Shown here piece after piece: positions 17,617-37,459 of a stretch of 47,917 nucleotides of DNA (the stretch's first letter is position 1; the number at the start of each line of letters is the position of its first letter). The notes beneath the pieces were generated by a model. That model ran no database searches. It saw only the letters and a program-made list of their open reading frames with translations, and was not told the DNA's origin. The translations under genes and the position numbers were made by a program. Origin of the DNA: Chloroflexota bacterium (GTDB lineage: Bacteria; Chloroflexota; Dehalococcoidia; UBA2979); the NCBI GenBank assembly GCA_003228125.1, contig QGNP01000009.1:1-47917 (forward strand), given 5' to 3'.

Positions 17617-19248
17617 TTATTTTTCCTGCAATGAAGCAAACCGCAATCTTGGAATAATTATTGATGGCTCAAGCCAATTTTTAAGTCTATCACTCACAAC
17701 ATAATGGGTAACAGAAAAATAAGTTGGTATCCATGGAACATCTCTCACTATCATCCTTTCAGCTTCTTGATAATACTCGACTCTTTTTAAAGAATCAGTT
17801 TCGATTCTAGCTTTCTCTAATAAATCATCAACTTCAAAATTTGAATAATTTTCATTATTTTCTGCTGATTGAGAATGAAATTTTAAGTCAAGAATATTCT
17901 CAGGATCAGGATAATCCAAAATCCATCCAATACTATACATTTGCATTTTTTTTAAATCAAGATCAGCAAAGAATGACGCTGCATCAGTTTGTCTAATATT
18001 AACATTAACACCTAAATTAGTTTTCCATTGCTCTACGTATGCTTGAATATCAGTTGATCCTTCAGCTCCTGCACCAATATCACTGAAGACAATAGTTGGC
18101 AAATTTTCTGCACTACCATATTTCGATCTTGAAAGATATTCACGTGCTTTTTCTGGATTAAACGAATAAGTTTTTATTGAAGAATCATATCCAAACATAC
18201 CCGGAGGCAATATTCCGGTTGCTTGAGGTGTCATCCCTTTAAAAGTAAGATCAGTGACTTTTTTTATATCTATTGCTGAAGCAAATGCTTTTCTAACATT
18301 AACATCATCAAAAGGGGCCTGGTTAATATTAAGCCCTATATAAGAAGTTGTAAAAGAAGTACTTTGCTTATATAACTTATTTAATTTTTCATTAGGATCT
18401 AACACTCTATCAATGTCAGAAGTAGATATATAAGCTACATCTACTTCACCATTTTCAAATCTAGTAAGAACCGATCCTCCCGAAAGCTGATATTCTACCA
18501 TTTGAATATTAGGAACTCCTAAATGATAACTACTATTAGATTCTAAAATAATTTTTTCACTTAATCGCCATTCTTTGATTTTATAAGGCCCGGTTCCATT
18601 AGGTTTTCTAGTCCAATTTCTTGGGTTTGCTTCAATCTGCTGGTAATCAAGAACAAAGGCTGTGGGATAAGATAATTTAGCAAGAAAATATGCTTTGGGG
18701 CTATCAATGGTAATCTCAATTGTAGACTTATCAATGACAGTAATTCCAGAAATAGATGAGGCTAGGCCAAATCTTTTTTCTTTGAAACCTATGATGTCAG
18801 CTAAATAGGTTAAAGATGTATTAGAATTAAGCTCTGGTGATGCCGCTCTTTCAAAAGACCATTTTATATCATCGGCAGTTACTTTTCGCCCACTATGAAA
18901 AAAAATATTTTCACGTAATTTAAATCTATAAACTAGTCCATCTTCACTAATATCAAGTGATTCAGCTAAATCTAAATTTATTTCTAATGCTGGAGTTATT
19001 GTTACTAAGCCACCATATATTTCAGATGCATATTGAGCAGAATTTGCATCTCCCATTAAATGTGGATCTAATGTATTTGGTTCTGAGCCAGCTAGCTTAA
19101 GTATGCTAGCTGGCTCAGAACCAATATTTTGTATATTTTCAACTGGCTGTTGATTAGTAATTCTTAATAATAAAGTAAGACCAAAAACAATGCCTACTAA
19201 TACAGTTAAAATTGTTAATAATAGAGCAAAAAATTTTTTAGAATTCAT
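17617..19248 (-). CDS. Family-5 extracellular solute-binding protein of an ABC transporter
   Basis: A 543-residue substrate-binding protein of the peptide/nickel class. An N-terminal hydrophobic helix (about 7-28) has no lipobox, so it is either a signal peptide or an uncleaved anchor. The mature domain opens with the family-typical AGSEPNTLDPHL (about 53-64) and includes LVYRFKLRENIFFHSGRKV, the usual lobe I motif. The protein sequence repeats GSEP at 43-46 and 54-57 because the DNA there is a perfect inverted repeat. AGGAT precedes the ATG at 19248. It lies 30 bp after aspS on the same strand and may be co-transcribed with it. No ATPase genes accompany it. Confidence 0.93.
   Translation of the reverse strand: MNSKKFFALLLTILTVLVGIVFGLTLLLRITNQQPVENIQNIGSEPASILKLAGSEPNTLDPHLMGDANSAQYASEIYGGLVTITPALEINLDLAESLDISEDGLVYRFKLRENIFFHSGRKVTADDIKWSFERAASPELNSNTSLTYLADIIGFKEKRFGLASSISGITVIDKSTIEITIDSPKAYFLAKLSYPTAFVLDYQQIEANPRNWTRKPNGTGPYKIKEWRLSEKIILESNSSYHLGVPNIQMVEYQLSGGSVLTRFENGEVDVAYISTSDIDRVLDPNEKLNKLYKQSTSFTTSYIGLNINQAPFDDVNVRKAFASAIDIKKVTDLTFKGMTPQATGILPPGMFGYDSSIKTYSFNPEKAREYLSRSKYGSAENLPTIVFSDIGAGAEGSTDIQAYVEQWKTNLGVNVNIRQTDAASFFADLDLKKMQMYSIGWILDYPDPENILDLKFHSQSAENNENYSNFEVDDLLEKARIETDSLKRVEYYQEAERMIVRDVPWIPTYFSVTHYVVSDRLKNWLEPSIIIPRLRFASLQEK
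19077..19124. repeat. Perfect inverted repeat inside the binding-protein gene, 20-bp arms, 8-nt loop
   Basis: Left arm 19077-19096 and right arm 19105-19124 are perfectly complementary over 20 bp around the loop ttaagtat. The core is ggttctgagccagctagc, far richer in G+C than its surroundings. It covers codons about 42-57 and so encodes IGSEPAS and LAGSEP from the two arms. No T-run follows in the direction of transcription, so it does not look like a terminator. Confidence 0.98.
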
Positions 19249-36076: not shown

Positions 36077-37459
36077 ATGAACAAATCTTTTATGTTGGAT
36101 TCTCTTAAAAATATACTCATTAGTTCTTCTGGTCCTATTGAAAATTTTTCTAAAATTAAAATTAATTCAGAAGATATTTGCGAGAATGATATATTTCTTG
36201 CTCTTAAAGGAGAAAAAGATGATGGTCATAACTATATTGACAGGGCAATTCAAAAAGGTGCAAAAGGAATTATTTCTACACAAAAAACAATATTGAGTAA
36301 AAAAATTACACATTTTTATGTAAACAATGGGCTCCTAGCTCTCCAATCTTTAGCTAAAGATTGGAGAGCTCAATTTAAAGCTTTAGAAGTTATCGGTATA
36401 ACTGGTAGCGTTGGAAAAACAACAACAAAACAAATAAGTGAAAAAATTCTAGCAACTAGTTACAATGTAATTAGTTCAAAAAAAAACTACAACAATGAAA
36501 TTGGTCTTCCATTAACAATTTTAAATATAGACAAAAAGACTGAAATTGCAATACTTGAAATGGGCATGTATCAAAGAGGTGATATCAAATTGCTTACTGA
36601 AATCAGCAGTCCAAATATTGGCGCAGTAATTAATATTGAACCAGTTCACATCGAAAGAGTCAGAACAAAAAAAAATATTTTTCTTGCTAAGCAAGAATTA
36701 ATTAATGGTCTATCAAAAAATGGTACTGCAATTATTAATAATGACGATCAATTAGTAAGAAAAATGAAAAAAAGTTTTGGAGGAGAATGTATTACATTTG
36801 GCATAGAAAAAAAATCTACTATTTATGCTTCTAACATAATTGATAAAGGATTAAATGGTTTTTCTTTTAATCTATATATAAATAATATCAATTTAAAAGA
36901 AATCAATATCAAGCAACCTGGGATTCATCTTTTGCAATGTTTTCTTGCTGCAATTGCTATTGGATATAAAAAACAAATAGAAATACCTAAAATTAAAAAA
37001 GCAATAGAAAAGTTTGAACTTCAAGAAAGACTACAAATAATTAAACTACAAAATAAAATAACAATTATTGATGATACTTATAATGCAAGTCCATCGTCCA
37101 TGATAGGTGCTCTTAGATTATTAAATAATAATACTAACTATAAAATTGCCATTCTTGGTGACATGCAAGAATTAGGCAGCCTTTCTGAAAAATTACATAA
37201 GCAAGTTGCGCAAGTTGCACAAGAATGTACTGATGAAATAATTTGCCTTGGTGATAAATCAGAAATTATTTATAATGAATATCGAAAAAAAAGTTCAAAT
37301 AAATCTACGCATTTTAAAATAAAAAAAGATTTATTGGATTATCTTAAAACTACAAAATTCCAAAATACATCAATACTTATCAAAGGTTCAAGATTTTTAA
37401 AAATGGAAGAGATAGTTCAACAATTGAAAAAAGAATCTATCGGAGATAAATATGATTGA
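36077..37459 (+). CDS. murF: UDP-MurNAc-tripeptide--D-alanyl-D-alanine ligase MurF
   Basis: A 460-residue Mur ligase that adds D-Ala-D-Ala to the UDP-MurNAc tripeptide. The ATP loop is ITGSVGKTTTK (about 107-117), then KNYNNEIGLPLT, EMGMYQRGDI and the C-terminal DDTYNASPSSM, which is specific to MurF. A perfect 34-bp palindrome lies over codons about 87-98, just before the ATP loop. It follows ftsI after 8 bp and overlaps mraY by eight bases. Its tripeptide substrate needs MurE, whose gene is not in this cluster. Confidence 0.96.
   Translation: MNKSFMLDSLKNILISSSGPIENFSKIKINSEDICENDIFLALKGEKDDGHNYIDRAIQKGAKGIISTQKTILSKKITHFYVNNGLLALQSLAKDWRAQFKALEVIGITGSVGKTTTKQISEKILATSYNVISSKKNYNNEIGLPLTILNIDKKTEIAILEMGMYQRGDIKLLTEISSPNIGAVINIEPVHIERVRTKKNIFLAKQELINGLSKNGTAIINNDDQLVRKMKKSFGGECITFGIEKKSTIYASNIIDKGLNGFSFNLYINNINLKEINIKQPGIHLLQCFLAAIAIGYKKQIEIPKIKKAIEKFELQERLQIIKLQNKITIIDDTYNASPSSMIGALRLLNNNTNYKIAILGDMQELGSLSEKLHKQVAQVAQECTDEIICLGDKSEIIYNEYRKKSSNKSTHFKIKKDLLDYLKTTKFQNTSILIKGSRFLKMEEIVQQLKKESIGDKYD
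36337..36370. repeat. Perfect 34-bp palindrome inside murF
   Basis: Every base from 36337 pairs with its partner to 36370: agctctccaatcttta, gc, taaagattggagagct. There is no loop at all, so it is a true palindrome of 17 pairs centred between 36353 and 36354. It encodes LALQSLAKDWRA of MurF and does not disturb the frame. Confidence 0.98.

Follow-up and report, generated by a model that had tools for sequence, protein, structure and literature searches.

A perfect 20-bp hairpin within an ABC transporter substrate-binding protein gene of a Dehalococcoidia genome, a probable inverted copy of a conserved coding segment

Introduction

Template switching is an established source of perfect, closely spaced inverted repeats (PMC8794818, PMC8604942, PMC4060949). 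In short-range template-switch mutations, which are associated with quasipalindromes, the reverse complement of a nearby segment is copied and a perfect hairpin is produced in one event (PMC7202029, PMC8794818). The hairpin described here is probably of the same kind; however, unlike in those events, its ancestral sequence cannot be reconstructed and its switch points cannot be placed, since the closest relative is only 69% identical. Template switching in the coding genes of Saccharomyces cerevisiae likewise homogenises intragenic inverted repeats with tolerated amino acid changes, and strains differed there at as many as five adjacent residues (PMC8604942), whereas in the present bacterial case about seven linker residues appear to have been replaced, as judged across species. 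Perfect close inverted repeats are over-represented in prokaryotic genomes, including within genes, and sequence-directed mutagenesis has been proposed as their origin (PMC4060949, where the survey of Ladoukakis and Eyre-Walker is also reported). The surveys in that paper concerned shorter arms, from 6–10 bp upward, while the present hairpin is a single case with 20-bp arms.

Perfect inverted repeats within coding genes have also been described in the mitochondria of Nematomorpha, with arms of up to 142 bp that both code for conserved protein (PMC6649704); in the hairpin studied here only one arm is conserved. The Rickettsia palindromic elements, as they are presented in PMC6649704, are also palindromic and in frame within genes, but they are transposable and dispersed, whereas the present hairpin was unique in its genome and showed no insertion relative to the sister species.

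Results and Discussion

Host gene and genomic context

The window, that is, the whole 47,917-nucleotide stretch of DNA that was analysed, had a G+C content of 30.6% and came from an AT-rich draft genome of Dehalococcoidia (1.1 Mb, 22 contigs). The ORF carrying the hairpin matched the Pfam family SBP_bac_5, in agreement with the ABC binding-protein gene named in the initial annotation. The nearest NCBIfam models were of the peptide and nickel types, every one of them below its cut-off. The protein consisted of an N-terminal hydrophobic helix, a variable linker and a conserved LxGx(D/E)PxTLDP segment. The gene was located between an aspartyl-tRNA-synthetase-like gene, which we take from its sequence to be aspS, and two permease genes followed by tig; the same order, aspS-SBP-permease-permease-tig, was present in the sister genome. 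The main genes between 6494 and 21093 were all on the minus strand. The features of the locus are as follows.

17617–19248, minus strand: ABC transporter substrate-binding protein gene, 543 aa (Pfam SBP_bac_5, E 4.7e-79)
19077–19096, minus strand: probable source arm, downstream in the gene, coding for the conserved KLAGSEPN; 12/20 nt identical to the sister species
19097–19104, minus strand: spacer or loop of 8 nt, ATACTTAA in the mRNA sense, coding for part of ILKL, the counterpart of the conserved (R)LRL in the alignment
19105–19124, minus strand: probable inverted copy arm, upstream in the gene, coding for IGSEPAS in the hypervariable linker; 6/20 nt identical to the sister species

Geometry, stability and expectation of the hairpin

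The sequence TTGGTTCTGAGCCAGCTAGC at 19077–19096 and its exact reverse complement at 19105–19124 were separated by the 8-nt spacer TTAAGTAT (19097–19104). Pairing was perfect over 20/20 bp, which confirmed the hairpin reported from the letters alone and matches the signature of a template switch, in which one segment is exactly reverse-complementary to another close by. When one T-T mismatch was allowed, the arms lengthened to 23 nt and the spacer shrank to 2 nt. The core of the arm, AGCTAGCT, was itself palindromic. Folding of the stem in the mRNA sense gave −40 kcal/mol (z = −12.9 compared to shuffled sequences). Based on base composition, perfect arms of at least 20 bp with loops of at most 20 were expected approximately 1.5e-5 times per window and 3.5e-4 times per 1.1-Mb genome, and 10 replicates of 374 kb of codon-shuffled genes contained no hairpin with arms of at least 16 bp. 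Chance as the origin of the 20-bp hairpin was excluded.

Comparison with orthologues

Orthologues of the family shared the hydrophobic helix, a low-complexity linker variable in length and sequence, and the conserved (R)LxLxGx(D/E)PxTLDP segment. The downstream arm together with part of the loop codes for ILKLAGSEPN, which is this conserved segment, so the family conservation claimed for the downstream half could be verified through the LxGx(D/E)P motif found across orthologues. The linker around the upstream arm was different in each orthologue.

The closest relative was a sister species with a syntenic locus and a protein of 69% identity; a scan of the genus revealed nothing closer than this identity, and a scan of genome contigs returned the same relative. 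The sister species carries QPINSSQGNQSTTEDNTLFFAGSDP in place of QPVENIQNIGSEPASILKLAGSEP of the window. The linkers could not be aligned at the base level, and base identity was higher in the downstream arm than in the upstream arm, as listed above. The hairpin was absent from the sister orthologue, in which the arms pair at 5/20 positions. Wherever else an orthologue had a readable linker, the longest perfect inverted repeat in the matching 180 nt reached only 5–10 bp. The ancient, conserved GSEPAS linker that had been set against the idea of a copy was not found.

From this comparison of sequences, the hairpin appears derived relative to the orthologues, with one arm ancestral. The upstream arm is likely the derived one, because the downstream arm is conserved, the linker is variable and the orthologues lack the hairpin; these observations bear out the earlier claim that a conserved coding segment was copied in inverted orientation. 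The linker was 23 residues long in the window and 24 in the sister species, which lacks GSEPAS. Because the window linker falls one residue short of its sister counterpart, the change would be a replacement and not an insertion, and the small hairpin insertion suggested as an alternative could not be upheld.

The GSEP repeat in the protein

The peptides coded by the two arms are IGSEPAS (upstream) and KLAGSEPN (downstream). The duplication of GSEP reported in the initial annotation is thus present, but it cannot be read as meaningful conservation, because codon arithmetic yields it automatically: at the frame offset of the hairpin, GGN-TCN-GAR-CCN, with serine coded by TCN, gives GS(E/D)P in every case when its reverse complement is translated. 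Nothing about selection can be learned from the repetition of GSEP. An open frame was nevertheless needed for the copy arm, because one of its other two frames contains stops. Peptide duplications such as GSEP/GSEP should not be taken as selected where codon symmetry is sufficient to produce them.

Excess of intragenic hairpins

Perfect hairpins inside genes (arms ≥13 bp, loops ≤20) were surveyed in sampled stretches and compared to codon shuffles. The genome of the window contained 13 such hairpins compared to 0.6 expected (374 kb coding sample), and the sister genome contained 11 compared to 0.5 expected (474 kb). The 20-bp hairpin was the longest among the sampled perfect intragenic hairpins. 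In two more distant genomes, for which the samples were smaller and the G+C content higher than in the window genome, 5 hairpins in 169 kb and 2 in 162 kb were found with arms of at least 12 bp, compared to 0.4 expected in each. Together with the hairpin case, the excess in two related draft genomes suggests that the marks of template switching are visible in an uncultivated lineage. It is a tentative further proposal, to which we give little weight, that template switching in coding regions is unusually frequent in this AT-rich lineage with its small genomes, serving as a recurrent source of new linker peptides, of which the 20-bp case would be the clearest.

The next longest hairpin of the window was located in murF (36077–37459, plus strand), as a perfect 34-bp palindrome at 36337–36370 with 17-bp arms and no spacer; at this site the sister orthologue pairs at 9/17 positions. 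Outside ORFs of at least 120 aa, AT-rich perfect hairpins were also observed in the same genome at L043 1033–1094, L048 12485–12544 and L045 6401–6460, with arms of 28, 25 and 23 bp, respectively. These are possibly terminators or products of the same mutational process.

Origin of the hairpin

The hairpin can with good confidence be regarded as a lineage-specific inverted copy of the LAGSEPN-coding segment, produced recently and most likely by a short-range template switch. In such an event, the polymerase would leave its template and copy approximately 20 nt from either the nascent or the opposite strand before returning, and the inverted copy would overwrite the adjacent, weakly constrained linker of about equal length. 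The reading frame would be left open, and because it stayed open the protein would tolerate the change, which was presumably neutral. The origin by template switching put forward earlier fits with one conserved arm, a derived arm in the linker and orthologues lacking the hairpin, while the perfection of the arms suggests either a recent event or ongoing homogenisation. Against this origin, the sister site shows no quasi-palindrome seed, and the genomic hairpin excess would also fit partial selection for mRNA structure. The case is ordinary but instructive, as it agrees with a replication error of a known type and offers a clean example in which such an error probably rewrote several neighbouring amino acids together and left the gene unbroken.

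Several smaller switches may also have perfected an older, imperfect palindrome in a stepwise manner. This variant of the template-switch explanation is possible but rather doubtful: the arm core AGCTAGCT is already palindromic, and orthologous sites of other intragenic hairpins of the genus are partly paired (for example, 14/17, 11/15 and 11/16), but the sister site at this locus pairs at about chance level, and shared ancestry would by itself account for the partial pairing in the other genes. Seeding by quasi-palindromes was also considered through arm pairing in orthologues; the values were close to those expected from shared ancestry, and such seeding is not claimed.

A functional mRNA hairpin, or an antisense terminator on the plus strand, that tunes the expression of aspS-SBP-permease-permease-tig would explain why so stable a stem is placed close to the 5′ end of the gene, in a gene order shared by the sister species. 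On the plus strand (19077–19134), TATTTTGTAT follows the stem, which scored as terminator-like in a scan. However, terminator-like matches were close to background (4 found compared to 2.3 expected) and the hairpin was flagged on the plus strand only, where no gene needs an end at this position. The sense strand after the stem reads ATACATTAGATCC. Neither a sense-direction U-tract nor a structure conserved in orthologous operons, the marks of an intrinsic terminator or attenuator, could be found; the sister locus and the other orthologues examined have no equivalent stem despite the same gene order, and ribosomes would translate through the stem. A regulatory function of the hairpin is therefore considered distinctly unlikely from the sequence, and the proposed effect of the mRNA hairpin on expression gained no support.

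A chimeric fold-back arising during metagenome assembly or amplification, which could be suspected in a draft genome of 22 contigs, is very improbable, since such a chimera would run into reverse-complemented flank, whereas both flanks keep the ORF and the gene order, and similar hairpins occur in many genes and in the separately assembled sister genome. Insertion of a small palindromic mobile element, resembling those in the coding genes of Rickettsia, is scarcely credible and largely refuted: the sequence is palindromic, in frame and at a tolerant site, but no lengthening relative to the sister linker was observed, one arm is family-conserved coding sequence, and the arm had no second copy in its own genome at up to 2 mismatches, which argues against a mobile repeat. 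The 18-mer core of the arm had a single 3-mismatch match in that genome. Among 393 genomes of the class, no exact copy of the arm was found elsewhere and the only other match had 2 mismatches; searches of the window against Rfam and of viral contigs with a relaxed hairpin pattern produced no match.

The exact 20-mer of the arm was also observed in two independent phage sequences, one at L092 180–199 and the other at L093 4234–4253 and L094 731–750, L093 and L094 being identical over 9.9 kb. No match was obtained in the viral contigs for three control 20-mers. The phage 20-mers are located in unrelated proteins and form no hairpin, one of the two reading GSEPAS and the other LAGSEPN. They probably represent the coincidence of a short coding phrase and not evidence of mobility.
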